The notes under the pieces were generated by a model. The model was given only the letters and a program-made list of their open reading frames with translations, was not told where the DNA came from and did no database searches. From Gammaproteobacteria bacterium (GTDB lineage: Bacteria; Pseudomonadota; Gammaproteobacteria; Poriferisulfidales; Poriferisulfidaceae), in assembly GCA_026713705.1 (NCBI GenBank), contig JAPONY010000029.1, positions 1 to 41,610 on the forward strand: 41,610 nt of DNA. Direction: 5' to 3'. The stretch's first letter is position 1. The number at the start of each line of letters is the position of its first letter. The position numbers and the translations under genes are program-made. Positions 4,652-29,165 of this stretch are shown here, piece after piece.

Positions 4652-6973
4652 TCACCACTCCCAGTTGACCCGGGCGTAGATGTTGCGCCCCGGCCCCGGC
4701 AGGCGCTCGCCGACTGCCAAGTCTCCCCCGCTGACCCGGTTGAAGCCGTTCATGTGATCGACGTACATGCGGTCCGTCAGGTTCTCCACGCCGGCAGACA
4801 GCCTGAAGCCCATGGACGGATGCGTGTACTCGGTGCGCAGGTTGTACAGCGCATACCCGGAAGTCGGCCGGTTGTGATTGTTGCCGCTTTGGGGATCGTC
4901 CAGCAAAAGCTGCGAGATCTTGGACTGGCGCGCCGCCCAATCCACTTCGACCGACACGATCCAGTCGTCCAGGGTGCGCGAGACGGACATCAGGCCCCGT
5001 AGCGGCGGCATACGGTAGATGTTGTCGTCCCGGATCGTCCGGGTTGTCTTGCTTGTCGTCCCATCCTCCAGTTCGATCACCCTTTCCTGGCTCTCGAAGG
5101 ACTCGCGCAGCTTGCCGCGCACGTAACTGACCGTGCCGTCCAACCGCCAATCATCCGTCAGCGGAAATCCGAATACCGCATCGGCCCCGTAGAACTCGGC
5201 GTCGACATTCGCGAACTGGATCGGAGTGGGATCGCCGTTGAGCACGCTGCTGACCCGGATCAGGTGTTCGTCCGTGGCCGGGATCCCGGTGATGTAGTCG
5301 TCGACCCTGCGCGCGAAGACCCGCGGAGAGAATTTCCTGCCGCTGTCTTCCCAGTTCAACCCCAGTTCGATCTGCCAGGAATCCTCGGGTTTTAAGTTGA
5401 TGTCGCCGACGTAGTTGTTGCCGTCGCCCAGGCCTGCATTGATCTCAAGCGGAACCCACAGGTAGCGTTCCATGTAGGCCGGCGCCCGGGTCTTGTGAGC
5501 CAGGCCGAATTCAAGGTCGGTCGATTCGCCCCAGTCGTAGCGCAACACGGCAGTCGCATCGATCTCGGTGTCATCCTGACTGCGATCCGCCCGGTTGAAG
5601 CGACCGCTGAGCATGCCGACCGACATGGCCGGAGGGGGCATCCAGTCCGCCGGCGTCAAAGTGGGGTCGTCGCACCCTCTCATGGCAAGGGATCCGTTCG
5701 AACCGTACTTGGGATGCTCGCCGCTGGCGTTGACCCTGAGCAGCATCTCGCAGGTCGGCCGGAAATGCTGGACGGAATCGGCATCCGTGCGCGTATGGTG
5801 CACCCGTACGCCGAATTTTCCACTCCACGGGCCTGTGAGATCACCGCTCCACTCGATAAACGCCCCGTACTCGTCCGTCGTCGCATCATCGAAATTCTCG
5901 ACGAAGAAAGGGGGCGCATCCGGATCGTAGACCGTTGCCCCGCTTTCGCTCTGCCTGAAATCCAGCCCCATGCGCAAGGTTCCCTCTCCCCAGGGATGGC
6001 TCCCGATCAGTTTTCCTCCGATCGACAGCCCGTCGACCAACACCAGGCGCTTGTCGGTCCCGCGAAACGGCGGCAGGATGTTGGCCTGGCTGAAGTCCGG
6101 CGGGTCGCGCAGGGCGTAGTTGGACATGTCGTGATCGGTTTCCTGGTAGTGGATCTGCACCTCCATGTGCCACTCCCCGACATCGCCGTGGTAGCGCAGA
6201 TTCATCAGGTCCGTGTGGTAGAAGTGGATGTCCATCGGCAGGGCCGGCACGCCGGCATTCCCCGTATTGTTCCGGGCATAGTCGAACATCAGCTCGCCGC
6301 GATCAAACTGCTGGCCCGTGCCAAACCCGAAGAAATCGCGCTTGTAATGGGAAGTCCGGATTTTTATGTCCGCGCTGTTCGTCTCGTCGCCCTGGTCGTG
6401 TGCCCCGTACAGGTGGTACCGGGCGCGATCGTTCGACACCGCCAGGAACACGCTTGCGCTGTTGCCGTCATTGAATGAAAGGTTGTCCGCCGTGACCCGC
6501 CCATGAAATTCGTAATCCTCGGACAAGCTGTAGCGGCTGGTGTACGAAAGCGCGTCGATGTAGCCGCCAATCGCAGAACCTGACCCCACCGGCGCAATGC
6601 CGCGATGCACCTGCACCGAATCCATGAGGGAACTGGGCATGTAATGCAGCGGGCTGTCCATCCAGGCAGGTCCGGCCGTATGCGGCTGGCGGCCATCCAG
6701 ATGGGTCTGAACCCGGTAGGTGTGCAGGCCCCGGTATTGCGGGATACTGGTCAGGGCGCCGTTGCGACTGACCGCGCCGCCGGGTGCCAGGCGGATCAGG
6801 TTGGGGGTGTCCGTCGGAACGCCGGCATGCTGGAATACCGCCCTGGAACCAAAGACCGTGATGATTTCCTGCGCATGGACGGCTGCCGTCGTGAACAGGA
6901 ATGCCGTAACGGCCAGCAGGCCCGAGAGGGAAAAGCCGCATATCTGCATGCAGATCATTCCACAATGCGCCAT
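4652..6973 (-). CDS. TonB-dependent outer-membrane receptor
   Basis: A protein of 773 residues from the chosen start. The signal peptide (MAHCGMICMQICGFSLSGLL... ending VHAQ) is followed by a plug domain, with TFGSRAV-like early strands and VQVHRGIAPVGSGSAIGGYID as the conserved plug signature. A 22-strand barrel ends with the aromatic terminus NIYARVNWEW. The ORF runs to 7003, but ATG 6971-6973 has GGAGAG seven bases upstream, so that start is preferred. It imports a metal complex or other scarce ligand using TonB energy. Segments such as DHDMSNYALRDPP resemble OprC/NosA-type copper receptors, and the signal region is rich in Met and Cys, but siderophore receptors cannot be excluded. No convincing Fur box is visible upstream. 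Confidence 0.88.
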   Translation of the reverse strand: MAHCGMICMQICGFSLSGLLAVTAFLFTTAAVHAQEIITVFGSRAVFQHAGVPTDTPNLIRLAPGGAVSRNGALTSIPQYRGLHTYRVQTHLDGRQPHTAGPAWMDSPLHYMPSSLMDSVQVHRGIAPVGSGSAIGGYIDALSYTSRYSLSEDYEFHGRVTADNLSFNDGNSASVFLAVSNDRARYHLYGAHDQGDETNSADIKIRTSHYKRDFFGFGTGQQFDRGELMFDYARNNTGNAGVPALPMDIHFYHTDLMNLRYHGDVGEWHMEVQIHYQETDHDMSNYALRDPPDFSQANILPPFRGTDKRLVLVDGLSIGGKLIGSHPWGEGTLRMGLDFRQSESGATVYDPDAPPFFVENFDDATTDEYGAFIEWSGDLTGPWSGKFGVRVHHTRTDADSVQHFRPTCEMLLRVNASGEHPKYGSNGSLAMRGCDDPTLTPADWMPPPAMSVGMLSGRFNRADRSQDDTEIDATAVLRYDWGESTDLEFGLAHKTRAPAYMERYLWVPLEINAGLGDGNNYVGDINLKPEDSWQIELGLNWEDSGRKFSPRVFARRVDDYITGIPATDEHLIRVSSVLNGDPTPIQFANVDAEFYGADAVFGFPLTDDWRLDGTVSYVRGKLRESFESQERVIELEDGTTSKTTRTIRDDNIYRMPPLRGLMSVSRTLDDWIVSVEVDWAARQSKISQLLLDDPQSGNNHNRPTSGYALYNLRTEYTHPSMGFRLSAGVENLTDRMYVDHMNGFNRVSGGDLAVGERLPGPGRNIYARVNWEW

Positions 6974-7115
6974 AGGAAACTCTCCTTGCAAGTCCCTGGA
7001 CAATCAAAAGGCCGATCAGAGCCCTAAAGCTCCGGTCAGCCGGATAAAACGGGGTGCCCGAAGGCTTCGACCCCGGACAACCGGCGGCAATCGTACCAAA
7101 TAAGGAAGGCCGGGC

Positions 7116-8825
7116 CTAACGGCCGCCCGCCTCCAGCCACAGGCACTGGTACGGCGCCAGCATCAGCTCCAGGTGGCGGCGGAGAACCCGAATGCGATTT
7201 TTCCCGATCAGGTCGTCCACCGTGCGCGGCTGCCCCAGCGGATGCGTGTCCAGATGTACGCGTTGCGGGTGTGGCGTGATGTTGCAGAGCACCAGAATCT
7301 TCTGCCGGGGCGATTCCCGCACCAGGCCGAGGAATCCCGAGCCGAGAGCCAAGGGCGTCATCGATGCCCGCGGTGCGAACGCGGGCTGCGCAGCACGCAA
7401 ACGGATCAGGCCCAGCAAGGCCTCCAGCACCTCCCGGCGCGGGTGCCCCGGTTCGTCCAGCTGCCGTTCGAGCTCCGCCCGGTCCAACTGCCCGCGGTTG
7501 ATCGAGCGCACGCGCCCGGTCTCGCGCACTTTCTCCTCGTCGTTCGGTGAAGCCAGCAAGCTGTGGATGTAGAAGGCCGGGATTCCCGGCAACGACAGAA
7601 GGATCGTGTGCGCACACAGCATCCGGGCGATCTGGAAATCGTCCTCGCCGAAGCGGGTGCCGCGCAGGGCATCGAACAGCGTGATGTTGATTTCATAGGG
7701 GTGCTCGCGGCCGTCGTCACCCACCCGGGTGCTAATCTGCCCGCCGAAGCGGCGCATCGTCTGCAGGAGATCTTCCAGTTCCTCCGGGGTGACGATCCGC
7801 TCGACCGGACGCACGCCGATGCCGTCGTGGGACGCGATGAAATTCAGGAACGTGCAACCCGGCGGCAACTCCGGCCAATCGCGGAGCCACCGGTTCAGGT
7901 AGACGGAGCTGCCGCGATGCAGGGCCTGCAGCACCAAGGACGGTAGCGCGAACTGGTAGACCAGGTCCGCTTCGTCTCCCGTACCGAAGTAGCTCAGGTT
8001 CTCGTGCTGCGGGACGTTGGTTTCGGTGATCAGCCGGCAGGCCGGCGCATACTCCCCGAGAATCGCATGGAGCAACCGGATGACCCGGTGCGTCTGAGGC
8101 AGATGGATGCAAGTCGTCCCGGGTTCCTTCCACAGATAAGCGACCGCATCCAGCCGCAGCAGGCGTGTGCCAGCGGCCACATACTGCGCCATTACGTCGA
8201 CGATTTCGAGCAAAACCTCCGGGTTGCGGTAGTTGAAGTCCAACTGGTCGTCGCTGAACGTGGTCCAGACCCCGCGGCTCCGCGGGTCGTTCGGCAGCGG
8301 AGTGATTAATGGGGTTGCCCGTGGTCGGACGACCTTGGAAGTGTCCATTGCCGAATCCACCACATGAAACCAGGGTTCCGCGCTGGCATCTCCGGACCAC
8401 AGGCGCTGAGCCAGCGGGTGTTCCCGCGAACAGTGATTAAGCACCAGGTCGGTCATCAGGTCGAATTCCCTGGCGATCCGGGAAACATCCTCCCAGCCTC
8501 CCAGGTCGGGGCGCACCTCCCGGTAGGACGAGATCGCGAAGCCGTCATCCGAGGTAAACGGGAAATAGGGAAGCAGATGCACGGCGCTGAACGCGTCCTG
8601 CAGGTGGGCTTCCAGAAAATCGGCCAGGGTGCGCAGCGGCGCCACCCCGGGTTCGGTCAGGGTATCGGCATAGGTGATCAGCAGCGTGTCTTTCTCCGAC
8701 CACTCCCGGTCCGGGCGGCGCGGTGCATACGCATGCCGCGCAAAGCTCTCGCCGATCCTTTGCTGCAGCGCATCCGCGTCCGCCTCCGGGTACAGCGCCC
8801 GGAGATGCTTGGAAATGACGTTCAT
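7116..8825 (-). CDS. GH13_18 sugar phosphorylase (glucosylglycerate/glucosylglycerol phosphorylase type)
   Basis: A protein of 569 residues with the alpha-amylase-type barrel of the sucrose-phosphorylase subfamily. The nucleophile lies in RLLRLDAVAYLWKEPGTTC (D226), the acid/base in RLITETNVPQHEN (E268) and the transition-state Asp in NFIASHDGIGV (D334). Sucrose phosphorylases have a different sequence after the nucleophile. The YLWKEPGTTCIHLPQTH form is what I recall from the glucosylglycerate phosphorylase branch (YcjM-like), so reversible phosphorolysis of a glucosylated compatible solute is inferred; substrate choice is not proven. The ORF extends upstream inside queG, but the ATG at 8823-8825 overlaps the queG stop by four bases (ATGA), the usual translational coupling. 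Sucrose phosphorylase itself remains possible. Confidence 0.85.
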   Translation of the reverse strand: MNVISKHLRALYPEADADALQQRIGESFARHAYAPRRPDREWSEKDTLLITYADTLTEPGVAPLRTLADFLEAHLQDAFSAVHLLPYFPFTSDDGFAISSYREVRPDLGGWEDVSRIAREFDLMTDLVLNHCSREHPLAQRLWSGDASAEPWFHVVDSAMDTSKVVRPRATPLITPLPNDPRSRGVWTTFSDDQLDFNYRNPEVLLEIVDVMAQYVAAGTRLLRLDAVAYLWKEPGTTCIHLPQTHRVIRLLHAILGEYAPACRLITETNVPQHENLSYFGTGDEADLVYQFALPSLVLQALHRGSSVYLNRWLRDWPELPPGCTFLNFIASHDGIGVRPVERIVTPEELEDLLQTMRRFGGQISTRVGDDGREHPYEINITLFDALRGTRFGEDDFQIARMLCAHTILLSLPGIPAFYIHSLLASPNDEEKVRETGRVRSINRGQLDRAELERQLDEPGHPRREVLEALLGLIRLRAAQPAFAPRASMTPLALGSGFLGLVRESPRQKILVLCNITPHPQRVHLDTHPLGQPRTVDDLIGKNRIRVLRRHLELMLAPYQCLWLEAGGR

Positions 8826-9874
8826 GTGTGGCGCTCCAGCGCCCACGCGACATGCTCGCGCACCAGTTCGCTGGGGTGTCCGGCGCGGGCTCTCAGCGAC
8901 GCGACCACGGCCTCGTTGCGCGGGGCATTGCCCAGCGCCACGGCGACATTGCGCAACCACTGGAGATGGCCGATGCGGCGCATCGCCGTGCCCTCGGTGT
9001 GGCGCAGGAAGTCCTCCTCTTCCCAAGCCATCATCTCCACCAGCGAGGATCCCTCCAGCGCCGCCCGCGGCTGGAAATCCTCCACGGAGGCCAGTTGCGC
9101 GTAGCGGTTCCAAGGACAGACCAACTGGCAATCATCGCAGCCGTAGACCCGGTTCCCGATCAGTGGCCGCAATGGTACGGGTATCGGCCCCTTGAGCTCA
9201 ATCGTCAGGTACGAGATGCAGCGGCGCGCATCCAACTGGTACGGCGCGACAATCGCCTGGGTCGGGCAAACGTCGATGCAGGCCCGGCAGCTCCCGCAGT
9301 GCTCTTCTTCGGTCGGCGGATCGGGCGTCAGCGGCAGGTCCGTATAAATCTCGCCGAGGAAAAACCAGGATCCCGCGTCCTTATCCAACAGGTTGGTGTG
9401 CTTGCCGATCCAGCCCAGCCCGGCCCGCTCGGCCAAGGCTTTCTCGAGCACCGGCGCACTGTCGGTAAACACACGGTAGCCGAATGGGCCCGCCACCTCC
9501 TCCATGCGTTTCACCAAGCGCCGCAGGCGGCTGCGCAGCACCTTGTGGTAGTCCCGTCCCAAGGCGTACCGAGACACATAGCCGCAGGCCGGGTCCGCCA
9601 GTGCCTGTTCTGCGCGATCGATCCCGTGCGGCAGGTAGTTGAGCCGCACCGAAATCACCCGCTGCGTCCCAGGTACCAATTCCCTCGGGCGCGAACGGCG
9701 CACCCCGTGGTGCTGCATGTAGCCCATCTCGCCATGCCAGCCCCGCCCCAGCCAGTCCAGCAGGCGTGCCTCATGCTCCTCCAGGTCCAGGTCGGCAATG
9801 CCCACCCGATCGAAGCCCAGCTCCCGGCCCCACCGGTGGACGGCATGCGAAAGATCCGGCAGTGAATCGGACAT
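8822..9874 (-). CDS. queG: Epoxyqueuosine reductase QueG
   Basis: Cobalamin- and iron-sulfur-dependent enzyme that makes the last step to queuosine in tRNA (anticodon position 34). At 350 residues it matches the family. Conserved features are the catalytic Asp segment FTDSAPVLEKALAERAGLGWIGKH (D138, centred on residues 135-160) and two ferredoxin-like cysteine clusters, CGSCRACIDVCP (C193, C196, C199, C203) and CDDCQLVCPWN (C246, C249, C253). A HEAT-like tail follows (QWLRNVAVALGNA ... HVAWALERH). The gene is divergent from asnO. Its stop overlaps the start of the sugar phosphorylase by four bases, an unusual operon partner for QueG. Confidence 0.95.
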   Translation of the reverse strand: MSDSLPDLSHAVHRWGRELGFDRVGIADLDLEEHEARLLDWLGRGWHGEMGYMQHHGVRRSRPRELVPGTQRVISVRLNYLPHGIDRAEQALADPACGYVSRYALGRDYHKVLRSRLRRLVKRMEEVAGPFGYRVFTDSAPVLEKALAERAGLGWIGKHTNLLDKDAGSWFFLGEIYTDLPLTPDPPTEEEHCGSCRACIDVCPTQAIVAPYQLDARRCISYLTIELKGPIPVPLRPLIGNRVYGCDDCQLVCPWNRYAQLASVEDFQPRAALEGSSLVEMMAWEEEDFLRHTEGTAMRRIGHLQWLRNVAVALGNAPRNEAVVASLRARAGHPSELVREHVAWALERHT

Positions 9875-9905
9875 GGCGGAAAAGGACTCCCTAAAAGGGT
9901 TCTAC

Positions 9906-9921
9906 TATACTGACTACTGTG
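9906..9921 (+). promoter_or_regulatory. Candidate -10 box placed to give a leaderless asnO transcript
   Basis: TATACT at 9906-9911 ends seven bases before the GTG start of asnO. The intergenic gap to queG is only 44 bp and no Shine-Dalgarno sequence lies within 15 bases of the start. A transcript from this box would begin at or next to the start codon. No good -35 is visible. Confidence 0.25.
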
Positions 9922-11700
9922 TGTGGAATCGCGGGAGAAAGGCATTTCAAGGGGCTGGCCGACCCCGCCCGCATCGCCCGCATGCTTGGCCCCCTGGCCC
10001 GGCGCGGGCCTGATCACGAGGGCCAGTGGCATCAAGGCCCGGTCGCCCTGGGGCATCGGCGCCTGTCGGTCATCGACCTGAATCCCCGCGCGCACCAGCC
10101 GCTGCTGGATCCCGATTCCGGGCGGGTCCTGGTGTTCAACGGCTGCATCTACAACTACCCGCAGTTGCGAACGCTGCTCCAGGAGCGCGGCCACCACTTT
10201 CGAACCACGGGGGATAGCGAAGTCATCCTGAAAGCCTATGCCGAATGGGGCGAAGACTGCGTCAGACGCCTGCACGGCATGTTTGCCTTCTCCTTGTGGG
10301 ATCCGGATGCGGAGCAACTGTTCCTGGCCCGGGATCGGCTGGGCATCAAGCCGCTCTACTACCACCAGACCCCCGACACCTTCCGTTTTGCCTCCAACGT
10401 GCAGGCGCTGCTCGCCACCGGAGACGTCGACCTTGCGCTCGACGGAGTCGCCCTGCACCATCACCTGAGCCTGCATGCGGTCGTCCCGGCGCCCCGCACC
10501 CTGCTGCGCTCCATCCGCAAGCTCGCGCCGGGCCACTGCCTGGCGGTTGATGCGCATGGCACGGTGAAAGAGAGCGGTTACTGGCAACTGGATGCGCGCA
10601 ATCCGGATCCCGCGCGCAGTGAGGAGGAATGGTTGGAACAGGTACACATCGAGCTTCGGGAGGCCGTGCGCAAGCGGGTGGAGATCTCCGACATCCCGGT
10701 CGGCGTGCTGCTGTCCGGCGGCCTGGATTCCAGCCTGCTGGTGGCCCTGCTGGCCGAGCATGGTGCCTCGCCTATTCGCACCTACAGCATCGGCTTCGAG
10801 GATGCGGGCGGGGAAGCCGGGAACGAATTCGATTACTCGGATGCGGTCGCCCGGCACTACGCCACCGAACATCACCGCTATTTCATCCGCAACGATCAGC
10901 TACTGGAGCGTCTGGACGAGGCCATCGGCTGCATGAGCGAACCCATGGTGGCGCAGGATGCGGCGGCATTCTTCCTGCTGGCCGAACAGGTCAAGCCGGA
11001 CATCTCGGTCGTACAGAGCGGACAGGGCGCGGACGAGGTCTTCGCCGGTTATTCCTGGTATCCGAAGATGCATGCGAGGCAAGCGGATGGGCTGGATGCC
11101 TTCTGCCGCTATTACCTGGATCGCACCCACGGCGAATTCGGCGAGGCGCTAATGCCCGAATGGGTTGGCGAAGATCATACTCGGGCATTGCTCTGCGAAC
11201 GGCTGGAATGCGGCGAGGATGTCGAATTCCTGAATGCCGTGCTGCGCATGGACGCAACCATGCTGATCACCGACGACCCGGTCAAGCGGGTCGATAACAT
11301 GACCATGGCATGGGGGCTCGAGGCACGCGTGCCGTATCTCGACCATCAATTGGTGGAGTGCGTCGCCGGGATGCCGGCGGAACTGAAACTGCGCGACGGC
11401 GGCAAGTACCCGTTGCGCGCCCTGGCCCGAACGCGACTGCCAGCGGAAGTGATCGACCGGCCGAAAGGATACTTCCCGGTGCCTGCCCTCAAGTATGTAC
11501 AAGGACCTTTCCTGGACTGGGCGCGAGAAACCTTGAGCCGGCCCGAATGCCGGAGTCGCGGGCTGTTTCGGGAGGAATACCTGGACCGGCTGCTTCAGGA
11601 TCCCCTGAGCCACCGGACTGCACTGGACGGTAGCCTCCTATGGCATGCGGCAGCGCTGGAGTGCTGGCTGCAGCAGCACGTGGACGGAATCAATCCCTGA
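9919..11700 (+). CDS. asnO: N-acetylglutaminylglutamine amidotransferase (asparagine-synthase family)
   Basis: A protein of 593 residues. It is expected to amidate N-acetyl-glutaminyl-glutamate-type dipeptide to the osmolyte NAGGN, using glutamine. The N-terminal class II glutaminase needs Cys2 immediately after the initiator; the frame reads M-C-G-I-A-G from a GTG, so this start is fixed by mechanism. The synthetase domain has the PP-loop SGGLDSS (266-272). Segments SEPMVAQDAAAFFLLAEQ and VVQSGQGADEVFAGYSWYP separate the NAGGN branch from ordinary AsnB. In other genomes the gene is normally followed by the NAGGN synthetase gene ngg and an M42 peptidase. Neither is here; a displaced sixA end and the island follow instead. 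Confidence 0.88.
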   Translation: MCGIAGERHFKGLADPARIARMLGPLARRGPDHEGQWHQGPVALGHRRLSVIDLNPRAHQPLLDPDSGRVLVFNGCIYNYPQLRTLLQERGHHFRTTGDSEVILKAYAEWGEDCVRRLHGMFAFSLWDPDAEQLFLARDRLGIKPLYYHQTPDTFRFASNVQALLATGDVDLALDGVALHHHLSLHAVVPAPRTLLRSIRKLAPGHCLAVDAHGTVKESGYWQLDARNPDPARSEEEWLEQVHIELREAVRKRVEISDIPVGVLLSGGLDSSLLVALLAEHGASPIRTYSIGFEDAGGEAGNEFDYSDAVARHYATEHHRYFIRNDQLLERLDEAIGCMSEPMVAQDAAAFFLLAEQVKPDISVVQSGQGADEVFAGYSWYPKMHARQADGLDAFCRYYLDRTHGEFGEALMPEWVGEDHTRALLCERLECGEDVEFLNAVLRMDATMLITDDPVKRVDNMTMAWGLEARVPYLDHQLVECVAGMPAELKLRDGGKYPLRALARTRLPAEVIDRPKGYFPVPALKYVQGPFLDWARETLSRPECRSRGLFREEYLDRLLQDPLSHRTALDGSLLWHAAALECWLQQHVDGINP

Positions 11701-11716
11701 CCAGATCCAGGCTACC

Positions 11717-11859
11717 CGTCAAGCCGGATTTTTCGGGGTGTCCACCTCGCGCAGGGTGCAGACGGCAGGACCCAAGTCCCGCCAGGAGCCGCAGTCCACA
11801 TCCAGACGCACCACCGCACAGGTCGGGAGGTCTCCCAGAATTTCGTTAGCCAGATACGC
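11717..11859. repeat. Left 143-bp direct repeat flanking the DndC-ParB-SNF2 island
   Basis: It matches 19361-19503 over 143 bp without gaps and with seven mismatches that I counted. It begins two bases beyond the sixA stop codon and ends where the sixA reading frame leaves the similarity. Every mismatch falls on a synonymous third codon position of sixA (for example AAA/AAG, AAT/AAC, TGT/TGC). Confidence 0.9.
11719..11859 (-). pseudogene. sixA: Displaced 3' end of sixA
   Basis: This fragment encodes the last 46 residues of the phosphohistidine phosphatase, from AYLANEIL to TPKNPA and the stop. The protein sequence is identical to the intact gene at 19363-19857. The 5' part is missing: the frame runs upstream into island DNA with no sixA similarity. 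It abuts the stop of asnO, 18 bp away, as a native convergent sixA end would. It is best read as the original host 3' end, pushed aside when a circular element carrying its own version of the sixA 3' end recombined into the gene. Confidence 0.85.
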
Positions 11860-11905
11860 GGGATTATGAACAAACTTTCGTCTATAGTGACATTCTGTTG
11901 CTCTT

Positions 11906-12934
11906 CTAATTCCACTCCGGCTCATATAGGTTCGTAGACGGTTCAGCATGCACACCTTGGAGTGAATTATTGATAGCGAGAGCCAATTCCATCCCGTGGT
12001 TTCGTGTATTGTCCGTAATTACTTTCTTGGCACCTGTACCTTCAACATATGCAAGAGTTTCACGAAAATCAGCATGGTTGGATAGCGCGACGCGATAAGA
12101 TCGATCAGACCGGATCATTAGTGGGTGACCAGGATCAACCATGTAGGCACTACATGTAACGGATGTTCCATTAATCTGTTCATTCCCAAATCCGTCGCCT
12201 TTGGAATAAAGTCGGATGTATGAATGCTCTTTCATGGCAGCTTGGCCAACATCTGAGTCAAGTGGCTTTAGTACTCCTGTCGCAAACCCATAGGTCTGGT
12301 AGACCTCCACCTCTTTTATAAGCCGATCACTAGCCAAGATGGGCACTTCTATTCGGCCATCAAGCACCTGCAAAACGCGCTCAACAGTTCCTCGGTAAGC
12401 ACTGACGTGCACGGGACCATATCGTAATCGCTGGCAGACAACTTCTAACAAGCATCTCTCTGCCTCTGCCTGTGTATAACGGCGTATGCTTCTGGGGCTT
12501 CCGTAAGTACTGTCGATAACAAGTACATCTACTTTGATCACATCATCAATGGGCCAGCTGAAATCACCAGAGTATCCGATTCGCAAACCGTCTGGTTGCT
12601 CCAACAGAACTTGGCACGACCCTAGCATATGGCCAGATGGAATAAGAGACAATTTCGAACCGCTGTTAAGCACATATTCATCACCACGACCAATACAATG
12701 AAGGTTATCTCGGTAACTGAGGTCTGCGTTGTGTTCTGCTACCAGCAAATCATATGTTTCGGGACTAAGTATGATATTTTGCGATCCCTTACTTCTATTG
12801 AAGTTTCCCATATGATCATCGTGAATATGCGTTTGGACACGGTAAGGGCGTTCTGCGCTAAAGCCATCGCACACTACTTCTGTGCCAAGACAAACAGCCC
12901 CACTCGCGAGCACGTCAACTTTGAGGTCGGGCAT
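11906..12934 (-). CDS. Beta-CASP metallo-beta-lactamase-fold nuclease
   Basis: A protein of 342 residues, the last gene of the island operon. The zinc motif HxHxDH is present as THIHDDHMG (H36, H38, D40, H41). It is followed by GHMLGS (101-106), GDFS (D124), DSTYG (141-145) and, near the C-terminus, SNHADF (285-290), which corresponds to the SxHAD motif of CPSF73/Artemis/RNase J proteins. This identifies a nucleic-acid phosphodiesterase rather than a lactamase. The middle contains a shortened beta-CASP-like insertion. The ATG at 12932-12934 has a GAGG nine bases upstream and is preferred to the longer frame from 12991; it overlaps the upstream gene by 20 bp. The likely role is end-processing or nicking of DNA in the same system, which is inference. 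Confidence 0.85.
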   Translation of the reverse strand: MPDLKVDVLASGAVCLGTEVVCDGFSAERPYRVQTHIHDDHMGNFNRSKGSQNIILSPETYDLLVAEHNADLSYRDNLHCIGRGDEYVLNSGSKLSLIPSGHMLGSCQVLLEQPDGLRIGYSGDFSWPIDDVIKVDVLVIDSTYGSPRSIRRYTQAEAERCLLEVVCQRLRYGPVHVSAYRGTVERVLQVLDGRIEVPILASDRLIKEVEVYQTYGFATGVLKPLDSDVGQAAMKEHSYIRLYSKGDGFGNEQINGTSVTCSAYMVDPGHPLMIRSDRSYRVALSNHADFRETLAYVEGTGAKKVITDNTRNHGMELALAINNSLQGVHAEPSTNLYEPEWN

Positions 12935-13640
12935 ATTCGACAGCCTCAGCGATATGGGTGCGGAATCGTTCCTCAAAGGGCTCTTTTCCAAAATTTCTTA
13001 GTGATATGTTAAATTCCTCACCCCCAACCAAAGTAAAGAACCGCTCACCCAAGCGACCTGATGTTTTTTGCAAGCCGATATGTTGAATACAAGACTCTAG
13101 CAATGAGTCTCTTTCCGCTTGCGTAAATTCACAGAGCGCATCCATGGCACTTTGATCAACAATTGAACCTATAAAAATGTAATGCTTTTGGTAAGTTGGT
13201 CGCATGTTTAAGACTTCCTGAAGGCATACGTCTATAGGACGCCCTGACCGCTTTCGGAGTTGCGCAACCTGTCTGACTTCTCTACTAGCTAAGCTATCCG
13301 TTAAAACTGATGTTGCAACAGCACGTTGATCATCAGAGTCTTGGAGCTTGGCCATTTCGACAGCCGCTGAAAAGCCTATGAAATCTTTGCCCGTCCCCCA
13401 ACTAATCAGATGTTGCAAATCATCAGGTAGGTCAAGAATGCGTAAAAAACGGCCGATGTGACCCGTCCCATCCAGTTGGATTTCGTGCGCGCAGTCATTC
13501 ATTGAGGCTCCCGCATCACGAGCCCGCTTAAGATGCAAGCCGACTTCAACAGGAGAAAGCGGGCGCCCTTTCCGATGGGTTCTATAACCCACAGACATTC
13601 GTAGGCGGCCAAGGTCTAAAGGGGTCAAACCGGGCAGCAT
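12915..13640 (-). CDS. ParB-HTH-like hypothetical protein
   Basis: A protein of 241 residues with no named family recognised. Residues about 30-110 (HLKRARDAGASMND..., IGRFLRILDLPDDLQHLIS, then FSAAVEMAKLQD) follow the pattern of the central helix-turn-helix domain of ParB/KorB proteins, including the RLLDLP-type helix and the segment before REVRQVAQLRKRSGRP. No ParB catalytic box is present; that box is in the next gene upstream. The two may therefore be a split or duplicated ParB architecture, together binding DNA. The start is the ATG overlapping the stop of that gene as TGATG, and the 3' end overlaps the nuclease gene. The C-terminal half is unassigned. Confidence 0.75.
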   Translation of the reverse strand: MLPGLTPLDLGRLRMSVGYRTHRKGRPLSPVEVGLHLKRARDAGASMNDCAHEIQLDGTGHIGRFLRILDLPDDLQHLISWGTGKDFIGFSAAVEMAKLQDSDDQRAVATSVLTDSLASREVRQVAQLRKRSGRPIDVCLQEVLNMRPTYQKHYIFIGSIVDQSAMDALCEFTQAERDSLLESCIQHIGLQKTSGRLGERFFTLVGGEEFNISLRNFGKEPFEERFRTHIAEAVEYARPQS

Positions 13641-14470
13641 CAATTGTCTCCTTCTAGCAACCCGTGTCCAATAAGTGCCTCTTCGATAAGCGAAGCCCCT
13701 GCCGCGTTTTGATTAATTTTTTCCTCTTTTGCATATTTCTGAATTGCTTCATGGGTTTCCTGAGTTATTGTTACCAATATCTGGGTTACTTGTGCCCCAG
13801 TTATTGCCTGCTCAACCCTATCGCTAATTGAACTTTCAGGATGCTTTTTGCTTTCTTGAGAAAACTTTCTCCGTTGAACATCGCTCATCGGATTCAATGT
13901 CTGTGCTAATTCAACTGCGACCTTAACATCAGGCTCGCCACAATCATCTGTAGCTGCATCTTGCGCTTTAAGAGCTGCATTTATGTCAACTTCCTGGTTA
14001 TCAACTTTTTCCTTTAGCTCTGGAATCAACCGCGGATATTTGACATTGTCTCGTACATCATGATGAGGCAAACCGGTGGCTTCAACTACTGCTTTTATAG
14101 TGCCGTAGTATTTATACAAGTGAAGAATTCCATCCGTTAGATCTTTTCCAGACAATTTGCGCCGCATCAAATTTTCAGTAATTGATATAGCCTTAGCCTC
14201 TCCTTCTTCAACCCGCTCATCAAGGATAGCCGCTGGAATGCTTTTCCTTTTCAGTATCCTATGTGCTAGAAATCGGCGTTGGCCTGCAAGTATCTCCCAT
14301 TTGCCAGCTTTCTGCGCATGGCAGACAATGATTGGCTGTAATAGTCCTTGCACTTTAATGCTCTCAGCCAAATCCTCTATCTCCCTACCTGGCTCTTGGG
14401 TACGCACCTGTGCTGTGCCTATCGTCAAGTCGTCCAGTGGAATCTCTCTGTACTCAGTGATTTTTGCCAT
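13640..14470 (-). CDS. ParB-domain protein with a possible C-terminal ribbon-helix-helix
   Basis: A protein of 276 residues. The ParB/sulfiredoxin-fold N-terminal domain shows DLAESIKVQGLLQPIIV and the nucleotide-binding box EILAGQRRFLAH (GQRR at 63-66), then SITENLMRRKLS (97-107), which is box 2 of the family. A short HTH region follows. The last 50 residues (ILVTITQETHEAIQKYAKEEK...) read as a ribbon-helix-helix-like dimerisation/DNA-binding tail. It has the best Shine-Dalgarno of the operon, AGGAGG nine bases before ATG. In IbrA/IbrB pairs a ParB-like protein is also encoded beside a PAPS-reductase-type PP-loop protein, so a partnership with the DndC-like enzyme is plausible. There is no parA, so plasmid partition is unlikely. 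Confidence 0.88.
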   Translation of the reverse strand: MAKITEYREIPLDDLTIGTAQVRTQEPGREIEDLAESIKVQGLLQPIIVCHAQKAGKWEILAGQRRFLAHRILKRKSIPAAILDERVEEGEAKAISITENLMRRKLSGKDLTDGILHLYKYYGTIKAVVEATGLPHHDVRDNVKYPRLIPELKEKVDNQEVDINAALKAQDAATDDCGEPDVKVAVELAQTLNPMSDVQRRKFSQESKKHPESSISDRVEQAITGAQVTQILVTITQETHEAIQKYAKEEKINQNAAGASLIEEALIGHGLLEGDN

Positions 14471-14483
14471 GGTTCAAATCCTC

Positions 14484-15875
14484 CTACTCTTTTTGGGGAA
14501 AAGACAAAACATCTTTGGGTGTTATATCCAAAATCTGCATAAGCTCACTTTTCGTGAAGCGGTGGGCTGTTGTTTCAACAGACTCTATGATTTCATCAAA
14601 CAACCCTTCTTTTCGATCGAGTATCGTTGCAATTCGCTCTTCTATCGAAGAGGCCACCAAGAAACGAATTACATGTAGTGGTTCATCCCGATCAAAACGG
14701 TGGGCGCGGTAGATAGCTTGTATCTCGACAGCTGGATTCCACCACCTATCGAAAACAACTACGTGTGTTGCCTCCCCTAAATTCAAACCGACGCCTCCAG
14801 CCCGAAGAGACACCAAAAGTAATCGGGGAGTTGATCCATTCCGGAAGCGATCCATAGCGGTTCGCCTCTGTCCATCTGACATTTCCCCGATCAGCAAATC
14901 AAAGGGGAGAGTGATTCTATCTGAAATCCACCGCAGTGTTTCGACAAATTGAGAAAACACGAGAATCCTAGCGGACGATCCCGCCTCCTCAATAATCCCA
15001 TTGAGAGCATCTAGCTTTGACGAAATGCCTGCCTCTCGGCTGAAATTGCAAATCACTTTCAATCGTGTGATTAACCCTAGCAGAGCAGTACTGGTGCCGG
15101 AAGTACTCGCATCAGTACCGATTAAACGATTTCTGGTTTCCCACAATTTTTCATATTCTTCTCTTTGTGATACAGGCAGATCAAGACGAATGTCTTGCAA
15201 AATTACGGGAGGAAGTTCGGCTCGAACCTCCGATTTTCGGCGCCGGAGCATTCTGGATTCTAGCTTTTTAGACAGATGCGTTCTGGAGATGTATTGCTTG
15301 ATGGATGGATCAAGGAAGCTAAGAATTGACGCTATGTCCTCCTCATCATTTTCAAGCGGTGTAGCCGATAAAGCCCAAGCACGTTTGCGTGGGAGAATTC
15401 GACAGGCCAAAGATGTGGCCGAATTTCTGTTCTTGATGCGTTGCGCTTCATCAAGAACAACAAGATCAAAAGAGTCCGAGGGGATGTACTCCAGGCTGTC
15501 ACTTCGAATCTGTTCATAGGAACATACCAAAACGGGAACTGGTAGTAAGTAGAATGCTTTTCTATCATCTACAGAACCCTGCACGTGTCGTACCGCAACC
15601 GATGGTGCCCATACCGAAAGTTCATCCATCCAGTTCATCGTCAAAGACGCAGGAGCAATGATTAAAGCTCGATTGATCTCGCTTTGTCTTCCTAATAGAA
15701 GTGCTAACGCAACTGAAGCTTGAACTGTCTTTCCCAGTCCCATCTCGTCAGCAAGAAGGGCAGATCGTGACCGATATAAAAACGAAATGCCTTCCCACTG
15801 ATAATCATGCAGTGTTGTGGGAACCCTAAGTTGAGCTTCAGCAAAATACCGTAACTGTCGGGTTTCAGATGTCAC
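14484..15875 (-). CDS. Minimal SNF2-family helicase/translocase
   Basis: A protein of 463 residues, little more than the two RecA lobes. Motif I is DEMGLGKT (43-50), motif II DEAQ (142-145), motif III SAT (170-172). The second lobe holds RAGGVGLNL and the motif VI segment YRAHRFDRDEPL, the RxHRxGQ-equivalent of SNF2 enzymes. It probably translocates on double-stranded DNA using ATP. There are no extra nuclease or binding domains, so it must rely on partners. The GTG start overlaps the stop of the DUF262 gene as GTGA, a four-base coupling. Small SNF2 proteins recur in phage-defence operons, which fits the context but is not proof. Confidence 0.93.
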   Translation of the reverse strand: MTSETRQLRYFAEAQLRVPTTLHDYQWEGISFLYRSRSALLADEMGLGKTVQASVALALLLGRQSEINRALIIAPASLTMNWMDELSVWAPSVAVRHVQGSVDDRKAFYLLPVPVLVCSYEQIRSDSLEYIPSDSFDLVVLDEAQRIKNRNSATSLACRILPRKRAWALSATPLENDEEDIASILSFLDPSIKQYISRTHLSKKLESRMLRRRKSEVRAELPPVILQDIRLDLPVSQREEYEKLWETRNRLIGTDASTSGTSTALLGLITRLKVICNFSREAGISSKLDALNGIIEEAGSSARILVFSQFVETLRWISDRITLPFDLLIGEMSDGQRRTAMDRFRNGSTPRLLLVSLRAGGVGLNLGEATHVVVFDRWWNPAVEIQAIYRAHRFDRDEPLHVIRFLVASSIEERIATILDRKEGLFDEIIESVETTAHRFTKSELMQILDITPKDVLSFPQKE

Positions 15876-17665
15876 TCAAATGCCCAAATTTTCACGGCAA
15901 GCGTTGCCATTCGTTTCTGTCTTTTTCTGATATGGTCTGGGCTCCATTCAGCTAGTTTACCTAGATCACGAGTAAGTTTTATCGCGCTTTCTTGATAACT
16001 TGGTCGTTTTTTTTCAAAACTGGAATTGTATTTCACGCCTGGTTTATTATCTGTGGGCCCCATTAGTGTTAGATTTCCAATCCGAGTAACCCAATCGGAA
16101 GCGTTAATACCATCGTCGGAAAAACCATCCCAGCCACTCCAGTGAATTGGAGATTCTGGAAGTACATGCTCAAGGCTACATTGGCGCGGATTTAGTAACC
16201 GAAAATCTTTTTGTTGATAACCATTAATCCCAAGAAGAAATTTTTTGTTTTTTGTAGAACCACTCATGCTAATTTCATTCATGGCATTACGAAACCTTGT
16301 ATCGTTTAGCACCCCAAAGGCCGATTGATCGCAATCCCGAAGAAAGTCAGCAAACTCTGTATCTGGAAGATCCTCGGCACTTGCGATGACATAAGCATAG
16401 TTTGAAAATTTCTCTTCAAAGTTGGATGGTTCAAACTTCGGTGCAACGAATGCCGTTCTGAGGACAAACGTGGCTAGACGAGAGAGGTTTTTGTGAGCAA
16501 TCCTCGCTATCCGTCTTTTTCGACGACCATCTTTCTCTTGAATAAACCAAGTCAATATGGAAAAGATTAATGGAAGGGTAACTTTATAGTCACGTAATTC
16601 GTATAGAAAAACGGCTAAATTCCTACGTGAATTTACTGTGTCAGACGCGACCTCGAATGCCCTAATGAAGTCTGGTTCAGGGTTGGCAGCTGTTATTCTC
16701 AGATAAAGCTCCAGAGATTCTGGTAATGCAAGTTGCCTCGTCAAATCCAGCACATAGTCAGGCAAAGATTCATCCGGAGTAGGCACTTTTCCTTTCTGGC
16801 TGCGAATAGCTTCTCTTGCCTCACGATAAAATTGGTCTTTTCGGAGAAAGCCAAACTTGCATTGCAAGCAACTTCGAATATATTCAGACGCTTTTTTAGT
16901 GTTAGGAATCCGTATGCCTATTCTCTCCAAATCCGCATGCACAGAGTTTTTCTTTTCGGATTCACTATCAGATCCAAAATGGGAATATAGGTAGTTACGA
17001 ATCAAATCCCAATCATCGAGTTTTTTCCCTCTGAAATTAAGTGTCTCGTATACGGCATTGGCATCAATATGTAATGGAACCCATAGACATGCAACTTCGA
17101 GGTTTCTCAGCAGAAATTGAAAATATTGCTCTGCTCGCTTGATATCCATAGAATCAAAAAACCTGTTAATTTCATCCCATGCAGCAGTAAGCAAACCATT
17201 AGTTCCTATCGTGTTTCCTCGAATCATCTGGTGATATTGCATCTTGTCATTTGCTGGCGGAGAAATCCGAGGAACATATTGGTCTGAGTCACTTAAAGTC
17301 CACACACCTTTATCATCTAGATCAAATAGCAGTCGCAATGCATGTCCTTCTCGCTGAGAGCCAGGCTTTTCATGGGAAAATCGATTGCACAGAACAGCGT
17401 TGACTAAAGATATCGTTATCATTCTTTGTTGACCATCATTAATAAGCCATTGCTCAGATCCATTTTCTATGAGCATTATTGCGCCCAAAAAGTACGTCTT
17501 TTGGTCTCTCTCTATCGTGTCATCAATGTCAGAAAGCAATGCTCGAACATCACTTACCGCCCAATCATAATGGCGCTGATGCCATGGCACTTCAAATTGC
17601 CCCATATGGAACAACTCGGAAATCAACATGGCCTCAGCCCGAATGACAGTACTGGGGTTAGCCAT
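15872..17665 (-). CDS. DUF262-DUF1524 protein (GmrSD/SspE-type, putative modification-dependent nuclease)
   Basis: A protein of 597 residues. The N-terminal DUF262 domain has FEVPWHQRHYDW and the NTP-binding signature INDGQQRMITI (DGQQR at 77-81), then LNFRGKKLDDWDLIRNYLYS. The C-terminal DUF1524 HNH-like domain has CSLEHVLPESP (H500) and RIGNLTLMG (529-537). In GmrSD these domains form a type IV enzyme that cuts modified DNA. In SspE the same two-domain protein senses phosphorothioate DNA and restricts phage. Its position next to a DndC-type gene makes an SspE-like role likely. The ATG at 17663-17665 lies 15 bases after the preceding stop, with no Shine-Dalgarno sequence, so translation is probably coupled. 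The substrate is inferred. Confidence 0.88.
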   Translation of the reverse strand: MANPSTVIRAEAMLISELFHMGQFEVPWHQRHYDWAVSDVRALLSDIDDTIERDQKTYFLGAIMLIENGSEQWLINDGQQRMITISLVNAVLCNRFSHEKPGSQREGHALRLLFDLDDKGVWTLSDSDQYVPRISPPANDKMQYHQMIRGNTIGTNGLLTAAWDEINRFFDSMDIKRAEQYFQFLLRNLEVACLWVPLHIDANAVYETLNFRGKKLDDWDLIRNYLYSHFGSDSESEKKNSVHADLERIGIRIPNTKKASEYIRSCLQCKFGFLRKDQFYREAREAIRSQKGKVPTPDESLPDYVLDLTRQLALPESLELYLRITAANPEPDFIRAFEVASDTVNSRRNLAVFLYELRDYKVTLPLIFSILTWFIQEKDGRRKRRIARIAHKNLSRLATFVLRTAFVAPKFEPSNFEEKFSNYAYVIASAEDLPDTEFADFLRDCDQSAFGVLNDTRFRNAMNEISMSGSTKNKKFLLGINGYQQKDFRLLNPRQCSLEHVLPESPIHWSGWDGFSDDGINASDWVTRIGNLTLMGPTDNKPGVKYNSSFEKKRPSYQESAIKLTRDLGKLAEWSPDHIRKRQKRMATLAVKIWAFE

Positions 17666-17680
17666 CAAATTGAAATTATT

Positions 17681-18976
17681 CTAAATGCCAGAAATGGCTG
17701 CATCATGTAAGGCCATACGGCAATCTTCGCTGACTTGATCTCGGCGCCATATGTCGTAAATCACTTCAAGTTCCGACCTAGAAATTAGTTCTTTTCCAGT
17801 TTCGGCCTCCAATACTTGCAATTGAACCAAAATTTGCTTACGCACTTCAAGAGTAAAAGGACCCATGACAGGTGTCCCATCAGCACGAAGTTTTACTTCA
17901 CCATTTCTGCGAACACGTTGCCGGTTTCGATCATCTTCCCGCAATTCAATCAGCCATTCACGAAAGTCGAATAGACATTCAAAAACATCTGCATCCTCAT
18001 GACCGGAATCAATTAATCCTCGAAGGCTCCGATCTTTGTTAACAACAGTGCAAGTCCAGCAACCGAACCTTGGTGAGGTTGTGCCACATGATGGAGCATC
18101 TTCTTTACTCAACACTAGCGGACATTCTCCACCTCCCCCATTGCGATACAGAGTGATTAGATCACGATGTGTGCCCCCCCACGGCGGTTTTCGCTGCATT
18201 AAAACCAACCAAACATCACGGTCTTCGAAGTCAGCCAATGGAGCAAACATGCTACACCCTTCAATAGAACTATGAGGGTTCATATTGCTACCTGAAACTT
18301 CCCTTTTTTCCATGTTGCGCCGACGATTGGCCGACTCACTTTTACGCGTCCCGACCAATAGCACCGCCCGCTTATGGATACGGACAATTGTTTGCAACAG
18401 TTGATTTGTCGGAAGAATTTTCATCCGGTCAGTGCACCACCGAAAATTCCGCGTTGGAGGAATATAGCCACGCCCAATAACATTGACCCAAAAAGTCTGG
18501 TCAACGTGTGGCTTTGTAATATGTGTTTTGACTGGAAGGTTACATGAAATAGCGGCAGTGGCAATTGCCGCCAAAGTTTTTCTAAGGTGCCGAATAACCA
18601 GAGGCGATTCGACAAGCGTATCATTTCCAACTATATGAATCTCACGCTTCCGGTCGACACTGGAGAGGGACGTTAACATTTCCCACGTCATTTGAAGTAG
18701 TAGGGTTGAATCTTTTCCGCCAGAATAAGCCACAACCCATGGGTCACTGTGCTGGCGCAGATACTCCCTACGAATTATCTCCATAACCGACTCATATTTG
18801 TCACGGACTTGCGCAATATCACCATCAACATTTATTTCGGAGGCTTGGGGAGCGCAGACAATCTTTGTGGGATCGTCCGTCACTGTAACGGTAGATGCGA
18901 CCTGAAAACGTGAAGTTTTTTTCAATGAGTCCTGTGCGGAGGGGGCTATTTGCGCAGCATGCCCAGATCTACGCAT
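17681..18976 (-). CDS. DndC/SspD-type PP-loop sulfur-activating protein
   Basis: A protein of 431 residues, the first gene of the island operon. PP-loop ATPase of the PAPS-reductase superfamily, with WVVAYSGGKDSTLLLQ (SGGKDS 85-90). DndC hallmarks are NDTLVESPLV, FWVNVIGRGYIPP, FRWCTDRMKI (C181), LLVGTRKSES, and GECPL...CG...FGCWTCT with C285, C297, C306, C309 as candidate iron-sulfur ligands. In Dnd/Ssp systems this protein activates the DNA backbone for sulfur insertion. DndA, DndD and DndE, or SspA, SspB and SspC, are not encoded here, so sulfur would have to come from a chromosomal IscS-type desulfurase. The ATG at 18974-18976 has GGAGGG seven bases upstream. Assimilatory CysH is excluded by the long DndC-specific C-terminus. 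Confidence 0.92.
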   Translation of the reverse strand: MRRSGHAAQIAPSAQDSLKKTSRFQVASTVTVTDDPTKIVCAPQASEINVDGDIAQVRDKYESVMEIIRREYLRQHSDPWVVAYSGGKDSTLLLQMTWEMLTSLSSVDRKREIHIVGNDTLVESPLVIRHLRKTLAAIATAAISCNLPVKTHITKPHVDQTFWVNVIGRGYIPPTRNFRWCTDRMKILPTNQLLQTIVRIHKRAVLLVGTRKSESANRRRNMEKREVSGSNMNPHSSIEGCSMFAPLADFEDRDVWLVLMQRKPPWGGTHRDLITLYRNGGGGECPLVLSKEDAPSCGTTSPRFGCWTCTVVNKDRSLRGLIDSGHEDADVFECLFDFREWLIELREDDRNRQRVRRNGEVKLRADGTPVMGPFTLEVRKQILVQLQVLEAETGKELISRSELEVIYDIWRRDQVSEDCRMALHDAAISGI

Positions 18977-19360
18977 TGTCAAACCCTCCGATCCGAGAAT
19001 AGGCGGCCTCTACCACCGCTTGTCTCCACGAAAAATCTATAGCGTTGATCATCATATAGAAAAGGCAATTTTGACCACTGCAGGCTCCTTATTTATTGTT
19101 TTTTGCTTGGAGCGAGATGGAGTATAACAAACCATTAGGATTCTCAGAGCGTCCTGTGGAGTGTCCGTGCGAAATCAACTTCATACCGTTTCGACAATGA
19201 ATTAAATGTTTTCTCTCATTTTATAAGTAGTTCAAATATCAATGCTTTTCACCACCCTGAAATTCAAGCAGTGACTGCACACCATCGAGATGTCTTCCGC
19301 TTAGCATAGCTCACTCAAAGAAAAATCATACCGTTTCTTGTTTATGCAGTGGGCTTGTTG
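18977..19360. promoter_or_regulatory. AT-rich 384-bp leader region of the island operon
   Basis: No gene is visible here. It lies between the ATG of the dndC-like gene and the stop of sixA, so it must hold the promoter of the six-gene operon. A 12-bp direct repeat, TCATACCGTTTC, occurs at 19181-19192 and 19326-19337. I see no strong -35/-10 pair. The end near 19360 is the island boundary. Confidence 0.45.
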
Positions 19361-19503
19361 CGTCAGGCCGGGTTCTTCGGGGTGTCCACCTCGCGCAGGG
19401 TGCAGACGGCAGGACCCAAGTCCCGCCAGGAGCCGCAGTCCACATCCAGACGCACCACCGCGCAGGTCGGGAGGTCTCCCAGAATTTCATTGGCTAGATA
19501 CGC
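19361..19503. repeat. Right 143-bp direct repeat (3' end of intact sixA)
   Basis: Partner of 11717-11859, with seven synonymous differences. It lies within the functional sixA, so this version was probably brought by the island and restores the reading frame. Confidence 0.9.
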
Positions 19504-19973: not shown

Positions 19974-20408
19974 TTAGATTTTGTACGCCTGCATGGTGCT
20001 ACCTCTGGAGAGACCAGCGATGAAGGGGGCTTTCGTTTTCACAACAAAACGAGCGATTCGATGTCTTTCCTTCACCAGCAATTCAGCCATTTGGGGGCCT
20101 GTTGCGTACTTCATCCGAATCACGACGACCCGCGCAGAATGCCTCCTAATAGCGTTGATTTCGGCGGTTCGGTAGCGGATGTTCTTGTCTCGGGTCACCG
20201 CAACCCAGCCCCTTTGCCCGACCAACGCAATCCATTCCTCATCCGGCGCATCAGCAGGGAGGTGATCGTCGTGCACTTCGACCTTGATCCCCTCGGAACG
20301 AAGCCGGGCCGCGATCATATGCTTCCCTAGGTTTCGGTCGAGGAAGAAAATCGGTGTTTCAGGCTGCAACCGGGAGTTCGCACCGGATTGCTTCCTCAAT
20401 TTCCTCAT
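19974..20408 (-). CDS. PIN-like toxin (DUF5615 / VapC45 type)
   Basis: A protein of 144 residues. The PIN-like fold is indicated by the first strand IFFLDRNLGKH (D24), the acidic loop DDHLPADAPDEEWI and the later VAVTRDKNIRYR strand, all typical of the small Mut7-C/DUF5615 PIN-like RNases paired with DUF433 antitoxins. It probably cleaves RNA when released. It overlaps the antitoxin gene by 50 bp, and the upstream order antitoxin-toxin is usual. The start could lie internally at a non-ATG codon, but the family core begins only at about residue 19, so the N-terminus given is plausible though unproven. Confidence 0.75.
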   Translation of the reverse strand: MRKLRKQSGANSRLQPETPIFFLDRNLGKHMIAARLRSEGIKVEVHDDHLPADAPDEEWIALVGQRGWVAVTRDKNIRYRTAEINAIRRHSARVVVIRMKYATGPQMAELLVKERHRIARFVVKTKAPFIAGLSRGSTMQAYKI

Positions 20409-21051
20409 GGCTGCGCTCGTAATCCTGAACTAAATCGTTGATCGATTCACCAGCCTTGTAGCGCTCGGCAACAAGCTGAACAGCCAAGCCAGTGCCAGCG
20501 ATAACAGGGCGTCCTGCAGAAAGATTCGGGTCAATGACAATCATCGCAGGTGCGTCGACCATGTCGTCGGCCCGGGTGAACGGATAGAGTTTGACTGGAA
20601 TGCCATTGGGATCACGCTCGATACGGCTCAAGGCTGCGTCAAGGACTTCCCGCATGGCCGTCTGCCCTGCTTTACTGAGATTGATCAGGCTTTCATACTC
20701 TTGGGCAAACAGGTCCACACCGTCCGTTTCCAAATCGCGGCTAACCAGCGGATGCCGCCTGTCAATCTCGCGTCGAGCCCTTTGCTCTAGATACTGGATC
20801 GCCTTTCGGATGCTTGGCATCTTCACATCGTGTACGCGTCGGATTGAAGCCAGAAGATGAAGCTCCGTAAGATTGAGGAACGAAAGGAGAACCGGAGAAT
20901 GTTCCGGTGTCACGATCAAGGGCGCATAGCTGCCTCGGCCCACCGCCCAGTACCTGACCGTGGCCGGAGGCACAGCAAGGTAGTGCGCCACTTCTAAAAT
21001 TGTGTACGCAGGCAGTTCCCGAGGGTCGGCCCGCCGCATTCCGATGCCCAT
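20359..21051 (-). CDS. DUF433 antitoxin with N-terminal HTH (VapB45 type)
   Basis: A protein of 230 residues. The N-terminus has a MerR-like helix-turn-helix (YTILEVAHYLAVPPATVRYW), suitable for autoregulation. The C-terminal DUF433 domain reads MIVIDPNLSAGRPVIAGTGLAVQLVAERYKAGES...LVQDY, close to the family consensus. It should neutralise the PIN-like toxin encoded just downstream. A good GGGAGG Shine-Dalgarno lies seven bases before the ATG at 21049-21051, and an inverted repeat sits 18 bp upstream of the start. Confidence 0.85.
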   Translation of the reverse strand: MGIGMRRADPRELPAYTILEVAHYLAVPPATVRYWAVGRGSYAPLIVTPEHSPVLLSFLNLTELHLLASIRRVHDVKMPSIRKAIQYLEQRARREIDRRHPLVSRDLETDGVDLFAQEYESLINLSKAGQTAMREVLDAALSRIERDPNGIPVKLYPFTRADDMVDAPAMIVIDPNLSAGRPVIAGTGLAVQLVAERYKAGESINDLVQDYERSHEEIEEAIRCELPVAA

Positions 21052-28942: not shown

Positions 28943-29165
28943 CAAAAAGTAAAAAACTGCCCACGCATCTGAGATGCTTTCTTACCTCAAAGCTACCGAA
29001 TGACGGAAAGAAACTCTCTCTTTTTAGTGTCTTACCGATGCCACGGTTTTGGGTCGACTCCTACCCACCGTGGACTCAGTTTCCATTGCAGACACGGATA
29101 TAGTTCACTCGGCGCTGCCGGCCATCCACCATCACTGGCGGATTCTGCTAATCCTGTATTCTCGA

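Follow-up and report, generated by a model that had tools for sequence, protein, structure and literature searches.

A six-gene DndC-GmrSD operon with an SNF2-ParB-ParB-beta-CASP module as a candidate phosphorothioate modification-restriction system without DndD and DndE

We describe a six-gene operon on the minus strand of contig JAPONY010000029.1 from a gammaproteobacterium, located at positions 11906-18976 of the analysed window (the whole stretch of 41,610 nt, to which all coordinates of the operon refer). It encodes a DndC-type sulfurtransferase, a GmrSD (DUF262-DUF1524) protein and a four-gene module consisting of an SNF2-family ATPase, two ParB-like proteins (ParB1 and ParB2) and a beta-CASP nuclease. 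We consider it just probable that the operon is a DNA phosphorothioate (PT) modification-restriction system operating in the absence of DndD and DndE, all of whose biochemical steps we infer. Within the papers searched, what is new here is a candidate PT-type modification-restriction system with a previously undescribed partner module.

RESULTS

Absence of DndD and DndE and exchange of partner modules

The presence of DndD and DndE was analyzed in 21 carrier genomes. Only two of them contain DndD (TIGR03185) and DndE (PF08870) above cut-off, with DndE adjoining DndD in both. Three control genomes with ABC-type loci yielded 200-284 bits in the same test. The window's own genome contains neither protein, nor does that of locus L023 (G156), which is near-complete (a 4.09-Mb record labelled chromosome in a 4.3-Mb genome). 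Rakesh et al. (2024) regarded the DndD/CxC-DndE pair as obligate and its absence in ∼250 taxa as a likely assembly artefact (PMC10853773). Contrary to this view, we argue that some absences of DndD and DndE are real.

A sister arrangement, DndC-GmrSD-GIY-YIG-DndB, was found at loci L010, L013, L014, L017, L027 and L033, several of which have a linked desulfurase. DndD and DndE are likewise absent genome-wide from these six genomes. We know of no name for this arrangement. In a DndC tree of 73 rows the DndC-GmrSD clade was supported (99/100). L014, which is of the GIY-YIG/DndB type, is nested among the DndCs of the SNF2-module loci (100/98), and L032, where an ABC-ATPase and a DndE-HerA fusion lie beside DndC-GmrSD, is sister to L010 of the GIY-YIG/DndB type (100/100). 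These placements indicate that three modules replaced one another beside the same DndC-GmrSD pair. Such swapping in one slot is our chief reason for proposing that the four-gene module takes over the job of DndD-DndE.

Operon structure, conservation and distribution

The six open reading frames (ORFs) are separated by gaps of at most ∼15 nt or overlap slightly, and are read in the order DndC, GmrSD, SNF2 ATPase, ParB1, ParB2 and beta-CASP nuclease. The dndC gene extends from an ATG at 18976 to a stop at 17681, and gmrSD from an ATG at 17665 to 15872. The SNF2 gene starts with a GTG at 15875, in a 4-nt overlap with gmrSD, and ends at 14484. ParB1 is encoded from an ATG at 14470 to 13640, where a TGATG overlap leads into the ParB2 gene (ATG 13640 to 12915), which in turn shares 17 nt with the beta-CASP gene (ATG 12931 to 11906). 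The six-gene minus-strand operon of the original prediction was thus borne out, with the first ATG and the last stop exact to the base. A promoter scan found sites no more numerous than in shuffles, and the site count of a terminator scan lay within one standard deviation of shuffles.

A DndC protein scan of 84,980 species genomes resulted in 80 loci that were kept, and order and strand in the relatives were judged by tblastn of the six window proteins. Both are the same as in the window in ∼18 loci (L002-L009, L011, L019, L020, L022-L024, L028, L029, L034 and L047), while two loci are rearranged: L026 has all six genes with insertions, and in L021 the four-gene part is divergent from DndC-GmrSD. 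The set spans eight phyla, namely Pseudomonadota, Acidobacteriota, Chloroflexota, Rhodothermota, Bacteroidota, Gemmatimonadota, Binatota and Dadabacteria (labelled Thermodesulfobacteriota in the DndC tree). Across 16 loci, the pairwise distances of the six proteins are strongly correlated, with r between 0.64 and 0.94, a level reached in 0 of 2000 permutations. The correlation is highest for DndC-GmrSD (0.94), and values of 0.84-0.88 were obtained within the SNF2-ParB1-ParB2 block. The search for six-family operons elsewhere that had been proposed as a check therefore revealed a conserved order and co-occurrence beyond chance.

To look for the module apart from DndC, a ParB2 profile was applied to 398 genomes of the window's phylum and to 396 and 400 genomes of two others; it detected only the known carriers and the genome G582 (locus L119). 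When 93 genomes of the class of G582 were searched with a ParB1 profile, G582 alone was detected. In L026 (14620-21105) several ORFs lie between ParB2 and beta-CASP, and the GmrSD and SNF2 frames are split; this locus is possibly a decaying copy or the site of a mobile-element insertion.

DndC and the sulfur supply

The protein encoded at 17681-18976 matches TIGR03183 with 338.8 bits (cut-off 290.4) and the PADLOC DndC model with 1.6e-112. Its PP-loop motif SGGKDST is invariant or nearly so across the operon relatives. Cys183, 287, 299, 308 and 311 are universal among the DndCs compared, including a canonical DndC, and Cys243 is kept in all but one. A parallel to IbrA/IbrB, drawn in the original prediction, is not needed, as the PP-loop enzyme exceeds the DndC cut-off.

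A cysteine desulfurase is encoded upstream of dndC in ∼17 of 20 relatives' loci, so that the usual operon comprises seven genes. The window operon is without a linked desulfurase; its host genome has an iscS beside an iscR-like gene on contig C22. The C22 gene is the housekeeping iscS, and it was rejected as a split-off part of the operon. IscS substitutes for DndA in known systems (PMC8092258; PMC10853773). Of the three Dnd partners that had been called missing, DndD and DndE are really gone from most carriers; the statement does not hold for DndA, given the linked desulfurase of the relatives and the host IscS.

The GmrSD protein

The protein encoded at 15872-17665 is an NTPase-nickase of the DndI/SspE type, matched by both Pfam GmrSD_N (PF03235) and GmrSD_C (PF07510). 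Its nearest PDB sequences are DndI (9jfl, 1.1e-8) and SspE (6jiv), both PT readers, in agreement with the earlier call of an SspE-like nuclease. The alignment revealed the motifs DGQQR, which is invariant or nearly so, and EH(V/I)LP...GNLTL. The equivalents of SspE Gln31 and Arg32 are conserved. The PT-sensor tyrosine, Y30 in SspE and Y25 in DndI (PMC9646914; PMC11662687), corresponds to a histidine within a conserved WHQR in nearly all members; L003 and L033 have tyrosine.

SNF2, ParB1, ParB2 and beta-CASP proteins

The SNF2-family ATPase/translocase (14484-15875) has a minimal length of 463 aa and matches Pfam SNF2-rel_dom (8e-42) and Helicase_C (8e-21). Its GLGKT and DEAQ motifs are invariant among the relatives. 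The family assignments made beforehand for DndC, GmrSD and SNF2 hold.

ParB1 (13640-14470) contains Pfam ParB_N (PF02195, 2.6e-16), a CTPase-type domain, followed by a helix-turn-helix (HTH), and its GQRR and TENLxRR motifs are invariant or nearly so. The structure model (pLDDT 80) matched Noc 7nfu in Foldseek (4.7e-11), and a C-terminal two-helix unit appears to resemble a ribbon-helix-helix. By its ParB_N domain, CTP-binding motif and HTH, ParB1 is a putative member of the ParB CTPase-clamp family and predicted to bind CTP. ParB2 (12915-13640; 242 aa) has a ParB-type HTH and is without a ParB_N/CTPase domain; the Pfam HTH_ParB match (6e-4) is below cut-off. Its model (pLDDT 90) matched the Noc DNA-binding domain 6y93 (TMt 0.81-0.84). 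Two ParB-like proteins had been proposed, and this description applies to ParB1 as such and to ParB2 for the HTH domain only. In the C-terminal alpha/beta domain of ParB2 (window 12915-13200), GRLG and FTLVG motifs are strongly conserved; the domain had no recognisable match in the fold search.

The last gene (11906-12931) encodes a metallo-beta-lactamase/beta-CASP nuclease. The call, already part of the original prediction, could not be based on Pfam and holds through a TIGR04122 match below cut-off (2e-19), PDB matches to aCPSF1/FttA/CPSF73 and an intact metal site, with the ligands HxHxDH, H121, D143 and H306 invariant in 19 sequences.

Co-occurrence with other PT systems

In G582 a complete DndC-DndD-DndE set has as neighbours a GmrSD gene and a divergent, rearranged module (SNF2-bCASP-ParB2-ParB1; bCASP, beta-CASP protein) (L119:172-10565). 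Linkage of the four-gene module to PT loci is thus seen twice; in L119 the module coexists with DndD and DndE, so that it is not exclusive to systems lacking them. Its position in L119 is compatible with two roles, that of a second targeting module or that of a restriction module. The same region also holds a 90-aa ORF (6287-6559).

The window's genome contains a separate SspABCD locus on contig C4 (L107, G000:C4:16000-35000), at ∼6586-13125 of that locus, with SspA on the plus strand and SspB/DUF4007, SspC and SspD on the minus strand. This small genome therefore holds two sulfur-DNA systems. Large plus-strand ORFs at 25-6413 of L107 may represent the restriction partner of SspABCD. The statement that Ssp partners are missing is correct for the operon, which has no SspB, SspC or SspD, but not for the host.

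An inserted island carries the six genes

The operon occupies an inserted island of ∼7.5 kb (11860-19360), recognized by composition, ORF content and empty-site alignment. Its GC content is 0.42-0.48, compared to ∼0.62 in the flanks. The island is bounded by two 143-nt direct copies of the sixA 3' end that are 95% identical, one being the 3' end of sixA itself (19361-19503, minus strand) and the other a distal copy (11717-11859, minus strand). In four congeneric genomes asnB adjoins sixA and the site is empty. The interior contains no gene beyond the six and no integrase; because it carries only those six genes, they travelled together. The proposal that the genes act as one unit is supported by this island with its empty site in congeners, by the conserved order and by co-divergence.

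No ParB2 or beta-CASP relative was found in 72,556 plasmids or in viral contigs, and carriage of the module by phages or plasmids was rejected on these grounds. Viral contigs did yield ParB1 matches, with ∼30% identity across the N-terminal part; these resemble ordinary phage ParBs. Beside sixA, the window encodes DUF433 and PIN_10 proteins (19974-21051) that resemble a toxin-antitoxin pair; the congener L105 has this pair as well, and two further congeners, L103 and L104, lack it at the site. A second stretch of low GC (0.51-0.53; 29000-32000) directly follows a tRNA-Gly gene (28675-28748) and is possibly another island.

DISCUSSION

For the operon as a PT modification-restriction system the following mechanism is proposed. 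Sulfur would be loaded onto DndC by IscS or, in most relatives, by the desulfurase encoded upstream, and SNF2-ParB1-ParB2-bCASP would stand in for DndD-DndE. The ParB proteins may load at a sequence motif and form a sliding clamp with CTP, and the SNF2 motor may move on, or distort, the DNA. The beta-CASP protein would then open or nick the backbone, allowing DndC to insert sulfur. GmrSD would sense the mark by its N-terminal pocket and NTPase and nick DNA without it. The Ssp pathway requires its nickase, SspB (PMC8092258), and DNA is also nicked by the DndE of archaea (PMC9239217); by analogy, the proposed nicking by beta-CASP would match both. There is about an even chance that the operon represents a third DNA phosphorothioation machinery besides DndCDE and SspBCD, in which the ParB clamp, SNF2 and beta-CASP choose the target bond and open it so that DndC can act. 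In that case ABC-DndE, GIY-YIG-DndB and SNF2-ParB-bCASP would be interchangeable targeting modules around a DndC-GmrSD core.

Several observations weigh against this interpretation. Most carriers are draft metagenome-assembled genomes, the module in L119 lies on the strand opposite to DndCDE and is at least equally consistent with a role in restriction, and in L021 it is divergently encoded, as restriction modules often are. The host SspABCD could supply PT marks, yet DUF4007 (SspB) is present in only eight of the 21 carriers. Finally, the PT-sensor tyrosine of DndI/SspE is replaced by histidine in nearly all members, with the adjacent glutamine kept. The original prediction of a separate modification-and-restriction system is partly supported: the unity of the gene set, the absence of DndD and DndE from most carriers and the kinship to PT readers speak for it, and the module beside DndCDE in L119 qualifies it.

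The main rival reading is that the four genes are a restriction arm analogous to DndFGH or SspFGH, which we hold to be possible though doubtful. The orientation of the module in L119 and L021 would fit it, as would its position beside DndCDE and a GmrSD gene in L119. ParB and SNF2 would patrol the DNA, beta-CASP would cut unmarked DNA and GmrSD would be a second effector, while DndC would place the mark together with proteins encoded elsewhere, or would need fewer partners than is assumed. Restriction systems often combine a nuclease with an SNF2 motor, one modification set can serve two effectors (SspE with SspFGH, PMC8092258), and the module proteins co-diverge more among themselves than with GmrSD. 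However, 19 of 21 carriers would be left without a known substitute for DndD/DndE, and the exchange of the module with GIY-YIG plus DndB and ABC plus DndE beside DndC-GmrSD would not be explained. No DndF, DndG, DndH, SspF, SspG or SspH was among the listed PADLOC, Pfam and NCBIfam matches of the six proteins.

Alternatively, DndC might make another mark, or another sulfur- or adenylate-based product, in place of a backbone PT, and the module might build or sense that product. The replaced sensor tyrosine and the absence of DndD/DndE, which the characterised Dnd systems need for PT, would be in line with this. We judge it unlikely, since DndC, with its cysteines conserved, scores above the equivalog cut-off, ABC-DndE modules are among the partners swapped within its clade, there is genetic linkage to a desulfurase and GmrSD is closest to PT readers. 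It is still less probable that the operon is a satellite that only extends or reads marks set by SspABCD or Dnd elsewhere. The host SspABCD on contig C4 and the DndDE encoded elsewhere in two carriers would fit such a role, but 13 of the 21 carriers have no DUF4007 and 19 have no DndDE, and the operon has retained a DndC and, in most cases, a desulfurase of its own. That unrelated defence genes merely cluster by chance or are decaying, as an acquired island whose window copy has no linked desulfurase might suggest, is very improbable and refuted by conservation: order over eight phyla, intact motifs and co-divergence.

In comparison to known systems, the operon shares DndC, a host IscS and a DUF262-DUF1524 effector with DGQQR with IscS-DndBCDE-DndI of Salmonella Cerro 87 (PMC11662687), but has SNF2-ParB-ParB-bCASP and no DndD, DndE or DndB, and carries histidine (WHQR) at the position of Tyr25. 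SspABCD-SspE (PMC9646914, PMC8092258) likewise combines modification with one DUF262-DUF1524 NTPase-nickase having Gln31 of the PT pocket, and its modification set needs a dedicated nuclease (SspB), to which the operon can be likened; SspB, SspC and SspD themselves are lacking here, and the PP-loop protein is of the DndC and not the SspD type. The systems with a CxC ABC-ATPase and DndE/HerA (Rakesh et al., PMC10853773) contain a related DndC and, in L032, stand beside a DndC-GmrSD of the same clade, whereas the ABC-ATPase-DndE that is the obligate core in that survey is absent here. The DndA-DndC-GmrSD-GIY-YIG-DndB loci (L010, L013, L014, L017 and L033) have the same DndC-GmrSD, no DndDE and a nuclease plus a ParB-superfamily protein in the slot, but GIY-YIG and DndB in place of SNF2, ParB1, ParB2 and beta-CASP. 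With Dpd (7-deazaguanine) and DISARM the similarity is restricted to the SNF2 domain (DpdE and DrmD profiles); as no other component is shared, membership in either was rejected. PADLOC models name parts only: the sulfurtransferase is called DndC, and the GmrSD protein HEC-06/Orf5. In agreement with the original claim that no described system has this exact set, no description of it was found in the open literature; preprints and most subscription papers were outside the search.

A DndC clade that is without the DndDE pair, has one member on a near-complete chromosome and carries conserved substitutes challenges the statement that this pair is obligate. If the operon makes PT, the activation and choice of the backbone bond could be approached by comparing three unrelated modules, and the roles of ParB clamps and beta-CASP nucleases would be extended to DNA modification.

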